Positions 23,481 through 62,464 of a DNA stretch of 64,000 nt are shown piece after piece. The stretch lies in assembly GCA_950022655.1 (NCBI GenBank), contig OX465584.1, forward strand, positions 60,328,841-60,392,840, written 5' to 3'. The position numbers and the translations under genes are program-made. The stretch's first letter is position 1; every line of letters begins with the position of its first letter. Under the pieces are notes generated by a model. The model was not told the DNA's origin, searched no databases, and was given only the letters and a program-made list of their open reading frames with translations. The DNA is from Alentia gelatinosa. Taxonomy: Eukaryota; Annelida; Polychaeta; Phyllodocida; Polynoidae.

Positions 23481-23511
23481 ATCTTTGAAGCCAAGAGAAC
23501 ATACTACTAAA

Positions 23512-24660
23512 TAGGCTCCATTTTAGGCCCACTTTTATTTATAGTTTATATTAACGATTTAATTACGGTTGTATCAAATTGTGGATGTCTGCACTATGCT
23601 GACAATACGGTTTTATTTTCTTCTGCAAAGACGCTAGAGGATGCGACTCAAAACATTCAACTTGATCTGAACAACCTGTCCCTTTGGTGTGATAGAAACT
23701 CATTGACCATCAATGCTAAAAAGACCAAGGTAGTTATATTTGGTTCTAACAGGAAAGTTAATAACAACTACAACAATGAATGTACTCTAAAAATTGGTGG
23801 CAGTACTCTGCAGATTGTTGCTTCATACAAATACTTGGGAGTTACCATGGATAGGAACTTAACATACAAACCTCATATAAATAACATACGAAGACTTGTG
23901 TCGCACAAATTGTATTTATTAAACAAAGTAAGACCATATCTTACTCCTGAAGTCTGTTTAACCATTTACAAATCCATGGTGCTCCCATACCTGGACTATG
24001 GAGATATTTTGTTTGACTCTGCCTCTGATAATGACCTTGGTCATCTACAAAAACTCCAGAATCATGCTATCAGAATCATCTACAAACTACACCCCAGAAC
24101 CCCCCGCATCATTCTCCATCGAACTGCTCAAATGGAGTACCTGGAATCACGAAGGGTAATGCATATAATGGATTATATGTACAAGCAACTACATAATAAT
24201 GACATTAGAGCGTTCCCGACCACGCACACGCGCGCAAACCAAGGACCAATTTTCAAGAAAAATCTACCAAAATTAACCATGTATATGAATTCTCTTAACT
24301 ACAAAGGCCCACAAATCTGGAACTCACAGGCCCCTGAACTGCTCTCTATTCCAGAGTACAAAGACTTTAAAAAGTTATTAAAAATACGGTTAAAGAACAG
24401 TGTGCCTTGATAGTACAGTGACAAACCTCCTATTGATATGTGGTATTGTTAACTTTATAGGATAATAACTGTATAATTTCATTGTGTCAGTGTGACAGAA
24501 TAACTACTAGCTAATCCTTGGATGGACGACCCACAAGCTGATTTGGTATGCCTGTTAAGTTACCACCTGATTGTTTAATACGGTACTGGCCGTGCATTGA
24601 AACCAGCGCCTACTTGTGCTGAGCATTGACCAGTCAAAATAAAAGACTAAAAAAAAAAAT
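23512..24660 (+). mobile_element. 5'-truncated LINE with poly(A)
   Basis: Homology starts abruptly inside the RT domain (GSILGPLLF at 23514) and runs through the C-terminus, a 3' UTR, an AATAAA signal (24638-24643) and an A-tract (24649-24659). This is the signature of target-primed reverse transcription with 5' truncation. Confidence 0.85.
23514..24410 (+). pseudogene. Truncated LINE reverse transcriptase
   Basis: The open frame of about 298 codons starts at the RT block GSILGPLLFIVYIND and passes YADNTVLF, LTINAKKTKVVIFG and YKYLGVTMDRNL. It ends in the RT thumb and C-terminal region (KGPQIWNSQAPELL). The catalytic pair normally read as ADD is here ADN (codons 23601-23606), which should abolish metal binding. 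The endonuclease and RT palm blocks A and earlier are missing. No ATG starts the frame. It is related to, but clearly distinct from, ORF3 at 44326-47211. Confidence 0.85.
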
Positions 24661-34198: not shown

Positions 34199-36269
34199 GG
34201 TTGTATGATGCTTGTATCAGGGAAATGGCTGTATAAGAAAGTAAATGTTGTACAAGCAGGGTGTTGGCTGTATGAGAAAATAGATGGTTGTACAAGCAGG
34301 GTGATAGCTGTATGAGGAAGTATGTGGTGTACAAGCAGGGTGTTGGCTGTATGAGAAAGTATGTGGTGTACAAGCAGGGTGTTGGCTGTATGAGAAAGTA
34401 TGTGTTGTACAAGCAGGGTGTTGGCTGTATGAGAAAGTATGTGTTGTACAAGCAGGGTGTTGGCTGTATGAGAAAGTAAGTGTTGTACAATCAGGGTGTT
34501 GGCTGTATGAGAAAGTATGTGTTGTACCAGCAGGGTGTTGGCTGTATGAGAAAGTATGTGTTGTACCAGCAGGGTGTTGGCTGTATGAGAAAGTATGTGT
34601 TGTACCAGCAGGGTGTTGGCTGTATAAGAAAGTATGTGTTGTACAAGCAGGGTGTTGGCTGTATGAGAAAGTATGTGTTGTACCAGCAGGGTGTTGGCTG
34701 TATGAGAAAGTATGTGTTGTACCAGCAGGGTGTTGGCTGTATGAGAAAGTATGTGTTGTACAAGCAGAAGGTTGGCTGTATGAGAAAGTATGTGTTGTAC
34801 AAGCAGGGTGTTGGCTGTATAAGAAAGTATGTGTTGTACAAGCAGGGTGTTGGCTGTATAAGAAAGTATGTGTTGTACAAATAGGGTGTTGGCTGTATGA
34901 GAAAGTAAGTGTTGTACAAGCAGGGTGTTGGCTGTATGAGAAAGTAAGTGTTGTACAAGCAGGGTGTTGGCTGTATGAGAAAGTAAGTGTTGTACAAGCA
35001 GGGTGTTGGCTGTATGAGAAAGTAAGTGTTGTACAAGCAGGGTGTTGGCTGTATAAGAAAGTATATGTTGTACAAGCAGGGTGTTGGCTGTATGAGAAAG
35101 TAAGTGTTGTACAAGCAGGGTGTTGGCTGTATAAGAAAGTAAATGTTGTACAGGCAGGGTGTTGGATGTATGAGAAAGTAGGTGTTGTACAAGCAGGGTG
35201 TTGGCTGTATAAGAAAGTAAATTTTGTACAGGCAGGGTGTTGGCTGTATGAGAAAGTAAATGTTGTACAAGCAGGGTGTTGGCTGTATAAGAAAGTATAT
35301 GTTGTACAAGCAGGGTGTTGGCTGTATGAGAAAGTAAGTGTTGTACAAGCAGGGTGTTGGCTGTATAAGAAAGTAAATGTTGTACAGGCAGGGTGTTGGA
35401 TGTATGAGAAAGTAGGTGTTCTACAAGCAGGGTGTTGGCTGTATTAGAAAGTAAATGTTGTACAGGCAGGGTGTTGGATGTATGAGAAAGTAAATGTTGT
35501 ACAAGCAGGGTGTTGGCTGTATGAGAAAGTATGTGTTGTACAAGCAGGGTGTTGGCTGTATAAGAAAGTAAATGTTGTACAAGCAGGGTGTTGGCTGTAT
35601 GAGAAAGTATGTGTTGTACCAGCAGGGTGTTGGCTGTATAAGAAAGTATGTGTTGTACAAGCAGGGTGTTGGCTGTATAAGAAAGTAGATGGTTGTACAA
35701 GCAGGGTGTTGGCTGTATAAGAAAGTAGATGGTTGTACAAGCAGGGTGTTGGCTGTATGAGAAAGTAAGTGTTGTACAAGCAGGGTGTTGGCTGTATGAG
35801 AAAGTATGTGTTGTACAAGCAGGGTGTTGGCTGTATGAGAAAGTATGTGTTGTACAAGCAGGGTGTTGGCTGTATGAGAAAGTATGTGTTGTACAAGCAG
35901 GGTGTTGGCTGTATGAGAAAGTATGTGTTGTACAAGCAGGGTGTTGGCTGTATGAGAAAGTAAGTGTTGTACAAGCAGGGTGATGGCTGTATAAGAAAGT
36001 ATGTGTTGTACAAGCAGGGTGTTGGCTGTATGAGAAAGTATGTGTTGTACAAGCAGGGTGTTGGCTGTATGAGAAAGTATGTGTTGTACAAGCAGGGTGT
36101 TGGCTGTATGAGAAAGTATGTGTTGTACAAGCAGGGTGTTGGCTGTATGAGAAAGTAAGTGTTGTACAAGCAGGGTGTTGGCTGTATGAGAAAGTATGTG
36201 TTGTACAAGCAGGGTGTTGGCTGTATAAGAACGTATGTGTTGTACAAGCAGGGTGTTGGCTGTATAATA
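34199..36269. repeat. 39-bp minisatellite, about 53 copies
   Basis: Unit GTATGTGTTGTACAAGCAGG then GTGTTGGCTGTATGAGAAA. Because 39 is a multiple of three, both strands carry frames of up to about 530 codons (13-residue periods such as YNTYFLIQPTPCL). No start context, splice signals or codon-position bias suggest real coding. The array continues after a MITE to about 36790. Confidence 0.95.
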
Positions 36270-40954: not shown

Positions 40955-41745
40955 CAAAGAGCACTGGACTTTGAGTCCCACTGCAGCCGCTTTTCTCCTT
41001 CACCCCCAGCAGTGGTAGATTTACTGCTATATCAAAGGCCAGTCCTTCTCATACCATGTCTATGTGGTGTGGTGTACAGCCACCTTTCTCCTTCACCCCC
41101 AGCAGTGGTAGATTTACTGCTATATCAAAGGCCAATCCTTCTCATACCATGTCTATGTGGTGTGGGAAGTAAAAGAACTCTCACCTCGGTAAATGTGTAG
41201 GGGTGAGATTTCTACCTGGATTCATCACATAGATTCTGTCACCACCCTAGTGGTGTAAATAGACAATAATCGATGGTTTTGTGGACAGGCGGCCGTAAAC
41301 CACGAGAGGTTGACGCGTAGTAATACACAAGCGCTAGCGAGTGTATTACGAGGTCATCCGCGAGTGGTTTACAGAGCCGCCTGTCCACAAAACCATCGTT
41401 TGTTGTATTTATTATCCATCTTTTCGAATAAATTAAACCCATTAGTTGCCATATTGACGGGGATAACAACAGGAACTATTTCTTTGCTCTATAGCAAAAG
41501 GGTCTATTTTTCCCGTATACCATGGTTTTGAGGCCGTATACCACAGGTTAGGTTCCGTATACCACAGTTATGGTATCTGACCGGTTTTATACAATGGGTC
41601 GTGGTTTACTGACTCCCCATACATTTTCAATGGGGACTTTGTATACGATGGATAATAAACCTTGAGAAAGTCTGGTAAGGACCTATAAAGGTTGACTGAA
41701 CGTTAAATCAAATCAAACCAAACAAACAAACAAACAGAATGAGAC
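40955..41745 (+). mobile_element. SINE split by a 396-bp hairpin element
   Basis: The SINE head remnant and two body units (AGCAGTGGTAGATTTACTGC twice, about 95 bp apart) lead to CACCCTAGTGGTGTAAA, then the inserted element (41264-41659), then CCTTGAGAAAGTCTGG and the (CAAA)n tail. Removing the insert restores the order of 21631-21944. Confidence 0.82.
41264..41659. mobile_element. 396-bp hairpin element, copy 3, nested in a SINE
   Basis: Same ends as copy 2 (CAATAATCGATGG, GATGGATAATAAA) and the same length. The hairpin arms (41271-41328 and 41341-41398) are about 55 bp each. No clear target duplication here: TAAA occurs at 41256-41259, before the element start, and again as the element's last bases (41656-41659). 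Confidence 0.8.
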
Positions 41746-41933
41746 ATTCATCAGTGAAGTGTAGAGTTATTTTTATGTGTAATATACAGAAACTGTCCTC
41801 ACATGTCAGGAGTGTGTATAACTCCTCGTGGTTACAATCCAGGTGAAGTGGAACTCCCTGGTCACGTTTCATGAACTGGTTATCATAAGAGCGTACGGGC
41901 CCGTACTGTGGATGGGATCAATATGGTATCTAA

Positions 41934-42890
41934 GTGCCAGATCAGAAAATTGCAGTACTCGAAAGTCAGCACAATCGTAAAGTTCTAGTGATAGATGGTG
42001 TTAGGGAAAAGCAGGACGAAAATCTTCGCGACATTTTTGATCAACTGTTAAACGATTTGAGCCTAAACCCGGTCTCGGTGGCGGTTGAGTCTATTTATAG
42101 ACGCGGGAAGTTTCAACAAAACGGGTTGCGGTCCATTGTAGTTCATCTGGTGAGCCTTAACTCCAAGTCACTCATATATAAGAATGTCAGCAAACTAAAG
42201 GGAAATGCCGTGTGGAATCGTGTATCTATATCTGACGAACTCACAAAAGAAGAACGTCGCATAAACAAGAATCTAAAGGCGATTCAGGTTGTGGCGCGCA
42301 AACGAAATGTGAAATGCATTGTTAGGGGAACTACAATCAAAATTGATAACACGACGTACCCGGCGGAGAAACTAGATGACTTGCCGCATGGATTGTCGAT
42401 AAGCCAGATAAAAACGGTGAACATTAATCAAGGTATAGCCTTTCAGGGTCAGTACTCTCACTTTTCAAATCTCTTTCCTTCTGAAGTAGTGTATAATGAT
42501 CAGGCTCACCCAACTGCTGAACATTGCTACCAGTACGAGTTCGCCAAATCAGTGGGCTCACTTGATATTGCAAAGAAAATCCAGCGTGTTAATGTACCCG
42601 AAGATGTTATTCGTCTAACTCGTGATTTGCCGAAAACGCAAGCCTGGCTTAATGCTCGTGACGTGATAATGCGCAACATCTTGGTGGCGAAATTTGAGCA
42701 AAACGAAACAATTCGCGGAAAACTTATCGCTACCAAGGGTAAGAATTTGTTTGAAGCCACAAAGAATCAGTATTGGGGCTGCGGCTACCACCTGGGAGAA
42801 CTAGGTCTTCTTACCAGTGATACAATCAAAGGAAATAAGCTGGGACTCATTCTTGAACAAGTTCGGGATCTATTGATAGCAGGAAATTAA
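41934..42890 (+). CDS. LINE ORF1: RRM-like region fused to NADAR domain
   Basis: 318 codons are open, but the first is GTG directly after a TAA (41931-41933). The first in-frame ATG is codon 245, so the N-terminus (probably a coiled coil) is missing or shifted. Residues 8-100 (LESQHNRKVLVIDGV...VESIYRRG) look like the RRM plus C-terminal region of L1-type ORF1 RNA-binding proteins. Residues 168-318 are a NADAR (YbiA/DUF1768) domain: FQGQYSHFSNLFP, PTAEHCYQYEFAK (Glu196), W238, KFEQNETIRGKL, LFEATKNQYWGCG (Glu274, Trp281) and GNKLGLILEQVR. NADAR proteins remove ADP-ribose from nucleobases or handle NAD-derived N-glycosides. Where most NADARs have Asp, three residues before Trp281, this copy has Asn278. 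ORF2 starts 8 bp after the stop. Confidence 0.85.
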   Translation: MPDQKIAVLESQHNRKVLVIDGVREKQDENLRDIFDQLLNDLSLNPVSVAVESIYRRGKFQQNGLRSIVVHLVSLNSKSLIYKNVSKLKGNAVWNRVSISDELTKEERRINKNLKAIQVVARKRNVKCIVRGTTIKIDNTTYPAEKLDDLPHGLSISQIKTVNINQGIAFQGQYSHFSNLFPSEVVYNDQAHPTAEHCYQYEFAKSVGSLDIAKKIQRVNVPEDVIRLTRDLPKTQAWLNARDVIMRNILVAKFEQNETIRGKLIATKGKNLFEATKNQYWGCGYHLGELGLLTSDTIKGNKLGLILEQVRDLLIAGN

Positions 42891-42898
42891 AATACAAA

Positions 42899-43723
42899 AT
42901 GGCTGCTAAAAACTATCCGTATTTTCCTTCGAAACTTGATGATGAGTTGGAAAAATTGGAGGAAACTCTAATTAAATCCTGGGTTCCTGTCCCAAGCCAT
43001 GTCATATTTGGGGACTCGAGAGTCAAACGTCTCTACGAAGCTATAGGTGCCCAAAATGTTCTAAAACATCGCTATAATGTCTTCTGCTTTCCTGGAGCCA
43101 CCCTTCAAGACCTTATTATGCTTGCTGGTAATCATCTTGCTCACAACCCCTATGCACTGATATACATCATGGGTGGAATCTGTAACATTACTACGAAACT
43201 GACTACTTCAAAAATACCGAAGAAACAAGAAATTAGAATGGACTGGTCTTCATCCACGTTACTTCTCCAACATCTTACCATGTATATGACAGCTGGTTAT
43301 GATTGGCTTGAAGAAACATATCCAAAATCGAGATTTGTAGTCTGTCCATTGGTTGGTGCTGATCTGTCTCGTTGTCTATCTGAATTTAAGATTTTAGATG
43401 TACAGTATGATGGTACCTGTGACACTAGTCTCGATGATGATCGAAGGCTAGAGAAAAAGGACAGTCTCCTCAAGAAACAAGACATAGTAAATCAAGCAGT
43501 GATGGCCTTCAACAAAGAAGTCATAGCACTAAACTCAAGACATAGCTCAAGTTTTCCGTGGATATCAAATCATGTGCATAAATTGAGACACGGGAGACTT
43601 AAGCACTATCCTGAACTGCTGCAAGATGGGATCCACCCATCTGATAAACTTCTTTCTCTATGGGCAAATGATTTTGTGTCAACATTTGCCAAAAATATTC
43701 CGACTACCAAATCTATCTGGTAA
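42899..43723 (+). CDS. LINE ORF2: SGNH/GDSL-like hydrolase
   Basis: 274 aa from an ATG (AAAATGGCT) 8 bp behind ORF1. SGNH blocks are visible: HVIFGDSRVKRL (block I, Ser40), the Gly of FCFPGAT (about 66), MGGICNI (block III, Gly and Asn at 92-96) and QDGIHPSDKLL (block V, Asp243 and His246). The full Ser-Gly-Asn-His set suggests an esterase-like fold. Esterase domains are known in ORF1 of CR1-type LINEs, where they may bind or modify lipids or assist RNP assembly. Here it is a separate ORF with an N-terminal LDDELEKLEETL helix. The tight spacing suggests reinitiation or coupled translation from one transcript. The substrate is unknown. Confidence 0.8.
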   Translation: MAAKNYPYFPSKLDDELEKLEETLIKSWVPVPSHVIFGDSRVKRLYEAIGAQNVLKHRYNVFCFPGATLQDLIMLAGNHLAHNPYALIYIMGGICNITTKLTTSKIPKKQEIRMDWSSSTLLLQHLTMYMTAGYDWLEETYPKSRFVVCPLVGADLSRCLSEFKILDVQYDGTCDTSLDDDRRLEKKDSLLKKQDIVNQAVMAFNKEVIALNSRHSSSFPWISNHVHKLRHGRLKHYPELLQDGIHPSDKLLSLWANDFVSTFAKNIPTTKSIW

Positions 43724-44325
43724 TCTGGATATCATTGAATTATGCCAAGCTATCAAAAACCTGAACTATTTTGGGAAAATGTTGAACCTTGCAAGATACG
43801 AAGTATATAGCGCTCTGTTACTTATGGAGGGCTAGTGCAGTTTTCACTCAGGGTTTATTCTAAATTACTAAATCTTGTTATAAGGTGGTAAACATCACCT
43901 GATTTCTGAAATTCTCATAGTATAATACTAACTGTAAATATTAGCCTGGAAAATACTATAGTTATCCTGCTGTTACTTATGGCTGATAACTCCCTAGTGG
44001 TCACCAGTGCATTTACTTGATGTGTAAGTCTGGATTCCAAATGTGAATTCCCTTACTGATGATGTACATTTACATGGACCTTGGAAGAGCCCGTGAACGA
44101 CCGGTAGGAAATCTGCCTCATTCTTACTATGACAAAGATGGTCGAAATGACCGATATTTTTGTCTTTTTATTTTTTTCCTGTTACTCGTTGCAGCTGTTT
44201 GCTGCCAGTTGGTCATCTTACTACTTATCTTTAAGGAAATGGACTCTGATGCTTATTGTCACCTTATATTTGAAGTTTATGAATGTTGGTATAGCTTTTT
44301 CCTGGGAACTTGATCCTTGGTCATT
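43724..44325 (+). other. Inter-ORF spacer of the LINE
   Basis: 602 bp between ORF2 and ORF3. It contains an 84-codon frame (44059-44313) in the same phase as ORF3, separated from it by one TGA (44311-44313). That frame has a very hydrophobic stretch (FIFFLLLVAAVCCQLVILLL). I treat it as spacer because it lacks homology that I recognise, but it might be leader coding sequence read through the stop. Confidence 0.4.
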
Positions 44326-47211
44326 ATGACAGCGTTACATGATGGTTCCACTGTAGCTAGATATAAGGGTTTGAAATTTGTTCATGCAAACTTGAGGAGC
44401 TTAAGATCTTCTTATGAATCACTTGCAGTTGAGGCACAACAGAATAGATGGGAAATTATCACTGCCTCAGAAACTTGGCTTACTGAGCTAGACTCAGAAA
44501 ACTCTTATCTGTTAAATGGTTATAAGAAAAGACGTGTTGATCGAACTTGGAAGGTGAATGAAACTGATGAGAAACCAAAATTAGGAGGTGGTCTATGTGC
44601 TTATATCAGGAAAGATATTAAACATGATTTTGTTAGATTTCAGCATTTAAACTTGAGCAACAAAAATATTGAGCTCCAGATTGTCTTGATTGAGAGACCA
44701 TATGCCAAGCGACTGGCTGTTTTGAATGTTTATAGGCCAAATAATGGTGGTTATGTCCCGTTTGTAGATAGTTTGAGTGATACCATACAAACTGTTAAAA
44801 AAGACAAGATAAGTGACCTTGTAGTGTTGGGAGATTTCAATATAAATGTAGCAAATAGGAACCAGAATGATGTTAATATGCTAATCACGGAGATGGAACA
44901 AATAGGTTTAAGACAATTAATTGTGGATACTACCAGGTATTCTGATAAAAGCTCTACAATTGATTTGATTTTCACCACACTGAATGATATATCAAATTTC
45001 GGGGTTTTATCAAATAGCTTAAGTGACCATCAAATGATTTTTGCCGTTAAAAAAGGAAACCGGGTAAAATCTAAGAAGGAAAGGTTGCAAGGCCGTTCAT
45101 ATAAATATTACTCAGTGGAAAGATTTAAAGATATCTTGGGAAACCACGACTGGAGTACTTTTGATGACACCAATAGTAGTCAGGTAAAATGGGATCAGAT
45201 TAAGGAAGCCATATTGTCTTACTTGAACCTTGATTGTAAGTTAAGATCTTTCACTGTCAAAGAAACAAATGAACCCTGGATATCACTAGAAATTATTGAG
45301 CGTATCAGGGATAAAAATCGGCTCCTCAAAGAAGCTAAAAATTCTGGGAATAAAAATGATTGGATTAGAGCCAAAAAAGCCAGGAATGATGTGAATAAAT
45401 TAGTAAGGTCGGCAAGACAGGTTTATACTTTAGGTGAACTGGAGAGGCATAAAAATGATAGTAGGAAATTTTGGCGTACAATTGGTAAAATACTCCCTGG
45501 TACTCAGGAAAATCAAGATAGTGACCAAATAAGACTCAAAGATGAAAACCAAGTCATAGTGAAAAATACTGATGTCCCAGACTATATCAATAACTATTTT
45601 TCAAACATTGGTGACAAATTAGCTGCGGATATGACGCTGCCATGGATGGCTTATGATAAAAGATGTGAAAATGAAATTGTGGACCTGTGGGTAACAAAAG
45701 ACCAAGTAATTACTGCTTTAAAAGAGCTAAGTCCAAATAAGCAGTCACTGCTTGATGGTATATCTTCAAGAGTGTTTATTGATGCTGTAACTTTGATGCC
45801 TGACAAATTTGTTGATTTGTTTAATTGCATATTTGAAAGTAATGTTATTCCAAAGGGCTGGAAAGCGTCGGTTATTGTTCCAATTCCGAAAGGAGGTGAC
45901 TCTTATCAAACAAATAACCTAAGGCCTATATCATTATTGCCAATCGTAAATAAGTTGATGGAAAAACTTGTTTATAAATGTGTGATGGCTTTCATAGATG
46001 AAAATAATATACTAGTTAAAAATCAATTTGGTTTTAGAAAATCTCATTCTACGATTGAAGCTGTTTCTATACTAACGGATGATATACTCACTAATAGAAA
46101 TGTTGGCAAGAGTACCTTGGCTGTGTATATTGACTTTCGTAAAGCTTTTGATACGGTGAATCATGGAATATTACTTGAGAAATTGGAGACCTATGGTATC
46201 AGAGGCATGTGTCTGGGTTGGTTCAGAAGTTATCTACAGGATAGAACACAGTGTGTTAAAGCTAATGACAAGCGTTCCTCTGCTCTCCCTGTGAAGCATG
46301 GTGTACCACAGGGTTCAATTTTGGGACCGCTTTTGTTTCTCTTGTATATTAATGACCTTATGCGTGTCTTAAAGACTACTAAGACGATACTCTTTGCGGA
46401 TGATACTGTTGTCTACCAACATGGTGGTGATGTGAATTTGTTATTTGAAAGCATCCAAGCTGACTTGGATATGGTAGAAACCTGGTGTTTACAAAATAAG
46501 CTGAGTATTAACACTGCCAAAACGAAGTTTATGTACTTTCCCTCAAAAAGAACTAAGGATTTGTGTGAAGGCAACCGGCTGTTTATTGATGGAAAGGAGT
46601 TAAGGCGTGTTTTCTCCTACAAATATTTAGGAATTGTCATAGATCAAAAACTTGATTATAAGCATCATTTTGCATCCATGAAAAAGAGCATTTCTTATCG
46701 CTTATATCAACTGGCAAAAATGCGTAGTTATTTATCCCAAAGTGCAGCAATTTCTATCTACTCTACTGCTATGCTCCCTTATTTTGATTATGGAGATATA
46801 TTATACCATGGTGCTGCTGGAAAATATACTGATGCTCTACAAGTCCTTCAAAACAAAGCCTTGCGTATATGTCTCAAAAGTGAACGACGTATGTCGATTG
46901 GTGAGCTACACAAACTAGCGAAAATACCGTATCTGGTGCACAGGCGTGAGGCACATGTGCTAAATTTCATGTATAAGAGATCATGTGATAAACGATACAT
47001 TGATAGCAGGGTTAAATATACTCGTCTGCACGATGCTCCGGTTTTGTTTGTAAATAAGCCAAACTGTGTTCCTTACATGAGATCTGTAATGTATCATGGG
47101 GGAGTGTTGTGGAATAACCAAAACTCTCTTGTTAGGAACACTCAAAGTTTTAAATACTTCAAATCATTGACTAAGACTCTGATGAAAGAACGATCCTTGG
47201 TAAATGTGTAG
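44326..47211 (+). CDS. LINE ORF3: AP-type endonuclease and reverse transcriptase
   Basis: 961 aa from ATG 44326 (an earlier TTG is in frame but unlikely). Endonuclease, residues about 15-240: HANLRSL (Asn22), SETWL (Glu49), LGDFNIN (169-175), STIDLIF (Asp213) and LSDHQMI (His235), so all metal and catalytic positions are present. RT, about 430-760: VIVPIPKGGD, LRPISLLP, QFGFRKSHST, VYIDFRKAFDTV (block A Asp), HGVPQGSILGPLLFLLYIND, FADDTVVY (Asp692, Asp693) and YKYLGIVID. The C-terminal region ends GGVLWNNQNSL...SFKYFKSLTKTL. No frameshift or internal stop. It would nick DNA and prime reverse transcription in the nucleus. The clade looks like the CR1/Jockey-RTE side, but I cannot place it without a tree. 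Confidence 0.95.
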   Translation: MTALHDGSTVARYKGLKFVHANLRSLRSSYESLAVEAQQNRWEIITASETWLTELDSENSYLLNGYKKRRVDRTWKVNETDEKPKLGGGLCAYIRKDIKHDFVRFQHLNLSNKNIELQIVLIERPYAKRLAVLNVYRPNNGGYVPFVDSLSDTIQTVKKDKISDLVVLGDFNINVANRNQNDVNMLITEMEQIGLRQLIVDTTRYSDKSSTIDLIFTTLNDISNFGVLSNSLSDHQMIFAVKKGNRVKSKKERLQGRSYKYYSVERFKDILGNHDWSTFDDTNSSQVKWDQIKEAILSYLNLDCKLRSFTVKETNEPWISLEIIERIRDKNRLLKEAKNSGNKNDWIRAKKARNDVNKLVRSARQVYTLGELERHKNDSRKFWRTIGKILPGTQENQDSDQIRLKDENQVIVKNTDVPDYINNYFSNIGDKLAADMTLPWMAYDKRCENEIVDLWVTKDQVITALKELSPNKQSLLDGISSRVFIDAVTLMPDKFVDLFNCIFESNVIPKGWKASVIVPIPKGGDSYQTNNLRPISLLPIVNKLMEKLVYKCVMAFIDENNILVKNQFGFRKSHSTIEAVSILTDDILTNRNVGKSTLAVYIDFRKAFDTVNHGILLEKLETYGIRGMCLGWFRSYLQDRTQCVKANDKRSSALPVKHGVPQGSILGPLLFLLYINDLMRVLKTTKTILFADDTVVYQHGGDVNLLFESIQADLDMVETWCLQNKLSINTAKTKFMYFPSKRTKDLCEGNRLFIDGKELRRVFSYKYLGIVIDQKLDYKHHFASMKKSISYRLYQLAKMRSYLSQSAAISIYSTAMLPYFDYGDILYHGAAGKYTDALQVLQNKALRICLKSERRMSIGELHKLAKIPYLVHRREAHVLNFMYKRSCDKRYIDSRVKYTRLHDAPVLFVNKPNCVPYMRSVMYHGGVLWNNQNSLVRNTQSFKYFKSLTKTLMKERSLVNV

Positions 47212-47669
47212 GCTGCATGTGGACCTTTTGTGAAATTGTACTTTGATTATATAACTGGATCTTTTTAAAGTTTATGGTATGACTATGAACTAGATGCTAT
47301 ACTGCATATTTCTCTTTTATATGATAAGCAAATTTCTGAGTTAAGGTGACCTTCTTTGTTTTCTTGTTCTTTTTTCTCTACTGTTCATTAAAAAATACGC
47401 ATCCTGTCATGGCAGGACCAAGAAAAGCAGCCTCGACCAGGCTGAGGTCCTTCGCCTCCTTATTGAGTAAAGTATTGTATTGTGAATGACTACAAGAATG
47501 TAAATTTTGACTCAATAAAGAAATTTTACCAAAAAAAATAAAAAAAAATCAATAAGTGTAAATAACAGGTCATGGCATGCAGTCATTAGCAATAAACAGG
47601 GCATCGATCATAGAACTGTGAACGGGTACGTGGATGTAGGGCGGGATATATGACATGTGTTATGGATAT

Positions 47670-51202: not shown

Positions 51203-51530
51203 TGGGGAGTTAGCTCAGTGGTTAATGCACCGGACTTAAAACACCAAGGTTGTTGGACTTTGTTGGTAGATTTTCAATCCTTCTCATACCATGTCTATGT
51301 GGTGTGGTGTGCAGCCACCTTTCTCCTTCATCCCAAGCAGTGGTAGATTTACTGCTATATCAAAGGCCAGTCCTTCTCATACCATGTCTATGTGGTGTGG
51401 TGTGCAGCCACCTTTCTCCTTCATCCCCAGCGGTGGTAGATTTACTGCTATATCAAAGCCCAGTCCTTCCCATACCATGTCTATGCGGTGTGGAAAGAAA
51501 TAAGATCTCTCTCCTCGGTAAATATATAGG
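51203..51530 (+). mobile_element. SINE with about three internal body units
   Basis: The head GGAGTTAGCTCAGTGGTTAA (A-box), then repeated CCATGTCTATGTGGTGTGG - AGTGGTAGATTTACTGC units. The tail is missing because it runs into the duplicated block. Confidence 0.7.

Positions 51531-52629: not shown

Positions 52630-53931
<1,302 letters not shown>

Positions 53932-60504: not shown

Positions 60505-61338
<834 letters not shown>

Positions 61339-61705: not shown

Positions 61706-62464
<759 letters not shown>

Follow-up and report, generated by a model that had tools for sequence, protein, structure and literature searches.

We explored a 64,000-nucleotide stretch of the genome of the polynoid annelid Alentia gelatinosa (assembly GCA_950022655.1, contig OX465584.1, positions 60,328,841 to 60,392,840 of the forward strand), referred to here as the window. 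It contains a copy of a long interspersed nuclear element (LINE) with three open reading frames (ORFs), which encode a putatively L1-like protein ending in a NADAR domain, an SGNH-hydrolase-like protein, and an endonuclease and reverse transcriptase (EN-RT). Comparison with other copies in the genome indicates a real, conserved and selected LINE architecture. It is confirmed as an element and forms a variant beyond the published NADAR-bearing LINEs; its function we infer.

The LINE insertion and its three ORFs

The insertion occupies 41944..47548 on the forward strand, the limits being those of identity to a sister copy, and holds the three successive open frames that had been noted earlier, at 41934-42890, 42857-43723 (ATG at 42899) and 44314-47211 (ATG at 44326). 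Two neighbouring stretches of that one sister copy, in which the ORF1 frame is complete, share 99.7% DNA identity with the window over 2444 bases starting at 41944 (L013) and 99.8% across the 4684 bases up to 47548 (L042). Since the sister copy is nearly identical, the family has moved recently. The sister ORF1 has 478 residues from its Met and the window ORF1 begins at sister residue 164; because identity starts only at 41944, 163 N-terminal ORF1 residues are missing from the window copy. The 318-residue ORF1 frame (41934..42890, forward strand) takes its first three codons from the flank, and most full-length matches in a genome search with it start at query residue 3-7, not 1. The window copy is without its 5′ end, which is common among LINE inserts, and, as a correction to the earlier note, its ORF1 is a truncated frame that lacks its own start codon.

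At the 3′ end, an AATAAA (47514..47519, forward strand) common to the sister copy stands ahead of an A-rich tail, A8 T A9 (47531..47548, forward strand), where the sister has a longer A run. A candidate left target-site duplication, ATCAATA (41917..41923, no strand assigned; partner at 47548-47554), is weak and lies 20 bases off the 5′ junction, and in the sister copy the same check turned up no more than a match of 10 bases at a distance from the junction. The union of endonuclease and reverse transcriptase (RT) in one ORF, the A-rich 3′ end, the 5′ truncation and the several copies are those of a LINE of the APE type, and the window insertion is a young, 5′-truncated, three-ORF copy of such an element.

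The NADAR domain covers ORF1 residues 173-314 (42450..42875, forward strand). It matches PF08719 with 83.5 bits (cut-off 35.1, E 2.6e-23, profile positions 9-162 of 163) and TIGR02464 with 84.4 bits (cut-off 73.7), and ORF1 matches PHROG 1017 with E 2e-27. Thus, the profile search on which the earlier note had staked its NADAR assignment is strongly significant. Among proteins of solved structure, ORF1 is related in sequence to E. coli YbiA (2b3w, E 6.2e-12) and to the NADAR protein 8bau (E 4.3e-6). A profile of 24 aligned LINE ORF1s, all of which match PF08719, found YbiA at E 1.9e-27, 8bau at E 4.9e-22 and human L1 ORF1p (2ykp) at E 1.5e-4, the last in a collinear alignment that runs through the coiled coil and the RNA recognition motif (RRM) into the C-terminal domain (CTD). 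The RRM/CTD-like part of ORF1 (41976..42431, forward strand) lies within this collinear stretch. With moderate confidence, these alignments point to an ORF1 protein (ORF1p) of L1-like coiled-coil/RRM/CTD type with NADAR at its C-terminus. A protein database searched with ORF1, ORF2 and the NADAR part gave no match at E<=0.001.

ORF2 (274 residues, 42899..43723, forward strand) starts 8 bases past the ORF1 stop. Searched alone against Pfam, the window ORF2 gave no significant family match, and its assignment comes through related ORF2s from elsewhere in the genome. It matches the ORF2 of L005 (pairwise E 4e-15, 26% identity), which itself matches PF00657 with 25.7 bits (cut-off 23.6), and the ORF2 of L011 matches PF13472 with 33.0 bits (cut-off 32.9). 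The ORF2s of L006, L009, L047 and L049 gave no match to the GDSL models, and those of L048 and L052 matched below the cut-off only. Against solved structures, the ORF2 family profile gave weak matches to an engineered protein, ‘FI6-focused design_03’ (E 0.0014), with its series-mate 9hi5, labelled GDSL-like protein, at E 0.51, and to 4c1b, an ‘ORF1-encoded protein’ (E 0.011) that we take to be the ZfL2-1 protein. We drew nothing from a single-sequence AlphaFold model of ORF2, whose mean predicted local distance difference test score was 35.6.

In an alignment of ORF2s, Ser40, Gly66, Gly93, Asp243 and His246 are invariant in 19/19 sequences, so that the catalytic Ser, Asp and His and the block II Gly of SGNH hydrolases are all in place. 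The block III oxyanion Asn is not: its position is taken by Cys95 in the window (codon 43181..43183, forward strand), by Cys in 14 and Ser in one of the 15 members of the window's branch, and by Asn in 4/4 distant members. A one-residue shift, with the next Asn serving as the oxyanion residue, could conceivably account for this. In the Ser-Gly-Asn-His blocks described earlier, the Asn is thus Cys in the window copy.

A spacer of 602 bases (43724..44325, forward strand), with neither a long frame nor any bias of G+C by codon position, separates ORF2 from ORF3 (961 residues, 44326..47211, forward strand). ORF3 matches RVT_1 (E 1e-39) and Exo_endo_phos_2 (E 3.6e-8), and the motifs HANLRS, SETWL, GDFNIN, SDHQ, GVPQGSILGPLLF and FADD are in place, which bears out the complete endonuclease and RT motifs claimed for it before. 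The motif GVPQGSILGPLLF would fit the CR1/L2/Jockey group. Tx1 belongs with L1, and we rejected membership of the window element in L1/Tx1, its RT being far from L1 (77 bits for ORF3 against human L1 ORF2p, compared with 364 bits for the L1-type RT of L045, another LINE of this genome). No relative was confirmed among viral contigs searched with ORF1, ORF2, ORF3 and a two-row RT alignment, or among prokaryote contigs searched with the two-row RT alignment. Elsewhere in the window, another LINE has left a C-terminal RT fragment (23511-24410) that shares 38% identity with the window ORF3.

Copies of the element across the genome

Next, we searched the whole assembly (1,234,393,884 bases in 101 contigs). 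With PF08719, the best 150 of 3136 candidates were scored; all 150 exceeded the curated cut-off and 146, counted by eye, had no internal stop. With ORF1, each of the best 125 of 3502 candidates had an E value below 1e-72. No fewer than 76 of these 125 ORF1 places are followed within 1.5 kb by an ORF2 in the same orientation; none has one on the opposite strand, and one has it upstream. Among 48 ORF3 places, at least 27 have ORF1 upstream, at least 18 have ORF2 and at least 16 have both. These counts of ORF order are lower bounds, since they cover the best-scoring places and some ORF3 places are truncated. The ORF2 places are 141 of 208 matches, with second segments and unlisted matches left out, and the 48 ORF3 places represent 50 matches, one split pair having been merged and one short fragment dropped. 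Other copies thus keep the NADAR ORF beside the SGNH and RT ORFs (76/125 and 27/48 places) and in the same order, and the proposal that NADAR, an SGNH-like ORF and EN-RT form one LINE holds.

Eight more NADAR places, chosen for their differing frame lengths, agreed: NADAR was present in 8/8, an adjoining SGNH-like ORF in 7/8 and a downstream LINE RT in 6/8. EN-RT likewise follows in L005 and L006 (L043 and L044, respectively), with a broken frame in L005/L043. The L1-type RT mentioned above belongs to a NADAR-bearing LINE (L010/L045) with a 1186-residue EN-RT, in whose fetched stretches no SGNH ORF was found. Because this RT is L1-type, a single genome combines NADAR ORF1s with two or more types of RT.

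Two NADAR places differ in their surroundings. At L046, NADAR ends a 1040-residue frame, with no SGNH ORF or LINE RT found downstream. At L050, NADAR and an SGNH ORF split by a stop into two pieces lie beside an RVT_1 ORF and, on the opposite strand, an ORF that weakly resembles a phage integrase (23.9 bits, cut-off 27.1); this is perhaps a nested DIRS-like element.

The NADAR domain is under purifying selection, and both it and the ORF2 domain are kept for function. By the Nei-Gojobori method, the ratio of nonsynonymous to synonymous divergence (dN/dS) of NADAR is 0.03-0.14 in 7 of 12 pairs, those with a computable dS above 0.1, and 0.07 in a pair with dS 0.08. For ORF2, dN/dS is 0.06-0.14 in 7/9 pairs and 0.49 in one very close pair, and one pair is saturated. 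Since other copies keep the order and dN/dS is low, the arrangement is more than chance. Comparison of the ORF1s of L013 and L014 gave a synonymous divergence of 0.28 in the RRM/CTD part and 1.40 in NADAR, a contrast that points to recombination or template switching having produced mosaic elements.

The NADAR active site and the role of the domain

According to passages of PMC11543638, ADP-ribose is contacted by R79, W89, R93, W133 and D130 (8bau numbering), and E43, K50 and E125 of 8bau correspond to E88, K95 and D171 of the E. coli C7 NADAR. As reported there, the Lys is essential for guanine-ADP-ribose hydrolysis in the C7 enzyme, although Arg can stand in for it in vitro; without D171 the enzyme is no longer efficiently active; E88A has a minor effect in vitro and E88Q is inactive. 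In the ungapped HMMER alignment of the window domain to 8bau, Phe203 (codon 42540..42542, forward strand) stands at the place of K50. This place is hydrophobic (F, Y, L or M) in 28/28 sequences of one branch, a set that includes the window itself and some near-copies. Lys is kept in 14/15 other NADAR ORFs of the genome, the fifteenth (L050) having Arg; two of these 15 (L007 and L008) are near-copies of L006, and an RT was confirmed for part of the set.

E43, W89, E125 and W133 are present in 24/24 aligned LINE ORF1s, the R79 place has Arg in 20 and Lys in 2, and the R93 place has Arg in 20 and Lys in 3. Lys at K50 is present in 4/24, and at the D130 place Asn, next to a variable residue, occurs in the 20 branch ORF1s and Asp in the remaining 4. 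The Lys-less sequences form one clade with support 100/100 in a tree of 33 of 47 NADAR domains (L030 and L031 gave no domain); the branches of this tree are long, and its host and viral sequences are too few to root it or to date the capture. A further 14 viral NADAR loci were found and not used in the analysis.

Thus, the branch lacks the Lys of guanine-ADP-ribose-hydrolysing NADARs and retains the catalytic Glu pair and Trp. Because the Glu pair is kept while the phosphate-binding Lys is lost, the branch NADAR may have shifted to another substrate, without canonical guanine-ADP-ribose hydrolysis, which we consider plausible if somewhat short of an even chance. That it retains the canonical activity is doubtful: with Lys replaced in all 28 sequences, plain reversal of nucleobase ADP-ribosylation by the branch ORF1 is not the simplest reading. 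The earlier note's appeal to such reversal is therefore questionable for the branch and plausible for the other NADAR ORFs.

Overall, we believe that the best explanation is a NADAR-bearing LINE in which NADAR has a role on ribosyl adducts, its substrate having shifted in the branch, and we hold it with about as much confidence as doubt. In LINEs, ORF1p coats the element RNA and the EN-RT protein, here ORF3p, nicks the target and carries out target-primed reverse transcription. We propose that ORF3p of this element would likewise nick the target and copy the element RNA, with ORF2p as an SGNH-like accessory protein absent from some sublineages. NADAR, carried in the ribonucleoprotein on ORF1p, would bind and, in most families, cleave ribosyl adducts carried by the element's RNA, by cDNA or by nucleotides, and this handling of adducts may protect the retrotransposition intermediate. 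For the Lys-bearing families, ADP-ribose removal would be the simplest idea.

Several observations weigh against this explanation. Unrelated coiled-coil chains appeared at E 2.2e-4 and weaker in the profile search that found L1 ORF1p, with tropomyosins from E 7.5e-4, and we rejected these coiled-coil matches as homology; a profile of the RRM-CTD part alone returned nothing significant among solved structures. The RRM-like region claimed before thus has its collinearity with L1 ORF1p in its favour, but not a match of its own. Eight of the 27 ORF1-ORF3 pairs, in a spacing count that took 95 of the 125 ORF1 places, are only 392-448 bases apart, too close for ORF2, with NADAR kept, and two of them (L025 and L026) had no ORF2 match in the fetched sequence. 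Because these pairs leave no room, the SGNH ORF is neither universal nor required. A very close pair (dS 0.03) has a NADAR dN/dS of 0.47, and three pairs are saturated. The loss of Lys could mean a dead enzyme rather than a new substrate. Finally, every functional statement on the element is one that we infer.

A catalytically dead branch NADAR, serving as a binding module for RNA, nucleotides or ADP-ribose or in ORF1p assembly, is possible but on the unlikely side. The branch-wide loss of Lys, together with the changed oxyanion residue of ORF2, looks like a general loss of canonical catalysis, but the retention of both Glu and both Trp in all 24 ORF1s goes beyond what pure binding would necessarily require, and the SGNH Ser, Asp and His persist in every aligned ORF2. 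We also consider, tentatively and with more doubt than belief, that NADAR serves LINEs of two or more RT types in this genome as a counter-restriction module, which ORF1 exchange or repeated capture would have spread, and that in the branch the domain, losing Lys and keeping the Glu pair, has been remodelled to act on some other ribosyl modification of nucleic acids, next to an SGNH partner with a changed oxyanion residue. If true, this would be an enzyme activity not yet known, used in the conflict between retrotransposon and host.

The mechanism of the earlier note, in which an active NADAR de-ADP-ribosylase clears host-added ADP-ribose from LINE RNA, cDNA or target DNA, is improbable in our view. 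We know of no case of ADP-ribosylation of LINE nucleic acid. Reversal of guanine ADP-ribosylation by NADARs is described in passages of PMC11543638 and PMC11125620, and passages of PMC9503650 propose, without direct proof, a role of RNA-virus NADARs in countering ADP-ribosylation by the host. The Lys kept in most other NADAR ORFs and the two Glu retained in the branch agree with this mechanism, but in the branch itself the residue essential in the C7 enzyme is replaced throughout by hydrophobic ones and the D130 place is Asn or shifted; the Cys or Ser at the oxyanion place of ORF2 also counts against it.

The genome does have a separate host-like NADAR ORF (L004), but chance frames or a NADAR gene merely adjoining an ordinary LINE are rejected with near certainty by the many divergent copies that hold NADAR inside ORF1, the low dN/dS, the fixed order and the mere 28% identity of L004 to the window domain. 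L004 (positions 1402-2127) is the genome's best NADAR match among those scored, with 180 bits and a 242-residue frame. It has Lys at the K50 place (read by eye), no LINE ORFs were found in its surroundings, and it is probably the host's own NADAR gene.

Known relatives and significance

We compared the element to published systems. The earlier note knew of no described example, but PMC12477816 contains a short passage in which several Tx1 LINEs of Crassostrea gigas are reported to carry NADAR in ORF1, and Ectocarpus Gypsy elements in Pol, with the processing of RNA intermediates as the suggested role. Among the matches listed in open-access literature, searched without Repbase and most subscription papers, we found no other report of NADAR in a LINE. 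Like the window element, the oyster LINEs encode an ORF1 protein that includes a NADAR domain of the YbiA family, and L010/L045, with its L1-type RT, looks like the same kind. The window element differs in its RT, which is not L1-type, in the SGNH ORF between ORF1 and EN-RT and in belonging to a branch without the NADAR Lys; neither an SGNH ORF nor the residue loss is mentioned in the text of PMC12477816, figures and supplements apart. The Ectocarpus Gypsy elements are likewise retroelements with NADAR but are long terminal repeat (LTR) elements, with the domain at the N-terminus of Pol, as that passage describes them.

CR1/L2/RTEX LINEs such as ZfL2-1 also have an ORF of SGNH type ahead of EN-RT, in which Ser, Asp and His are conserved, as described in parts of PMC3905857, where no esterase ORF1p in RepBase had an RRM. 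Their esterase is part of ORF1p, whereas the window has a separate SGNH ORF beside an RRM-type ORF1 and Cys for the oxyanion Asn. Stand-alone GDSL/SGNH ORFs also occur in other element classes: sections of PMC5408684 describe GDSL ORFs captured by diverse retroelements, with GDSL ORF3s common to bdelloid LTR and Penelope-like elements, and the word NADAR is absent from its main text. The NADAR enzymes themselves (E. coli YbiA, the DarT1-linked NADAR and Phytophthora NADAR 8bau), as far as the passages on them go, share the full-length domain and most active-site residues with the window, in which the domain is fused to a LINE ORF1p and the essential Lys is Phe. Evolution of ORF1 is modular and reticulate according to passages of PMC4120745.

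The remainder of the window includes, at 61931-62461, the final portion of a LIX1 (limb expression 1) gene (PF14954, E 4.4e-72) and four short, dispersed arrays of seemingly one 93-base tandem repeat (40984-41165, 51278-51493, 52640-52812 and 60571-61118). A minisatellite at 34226-36265, with 52 copies of 39 bases, has open frames up to 734 residues; because its unit is a multiple of three, these long frames need not be genes.

In the A. gelatinosa genome, NADAR is a conserved, selected part of many LINEs with two RT types, and an SGNH ORF frequently accompanies it. A passage of PMC11125620 calls the roles of animal NADARs unclear, and a retrotransposon depending on NADAR would allow these roles to be assayed genetically. 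Families with and without the Lys occur naturally and provide a ready comparison of the requirements of the domain.

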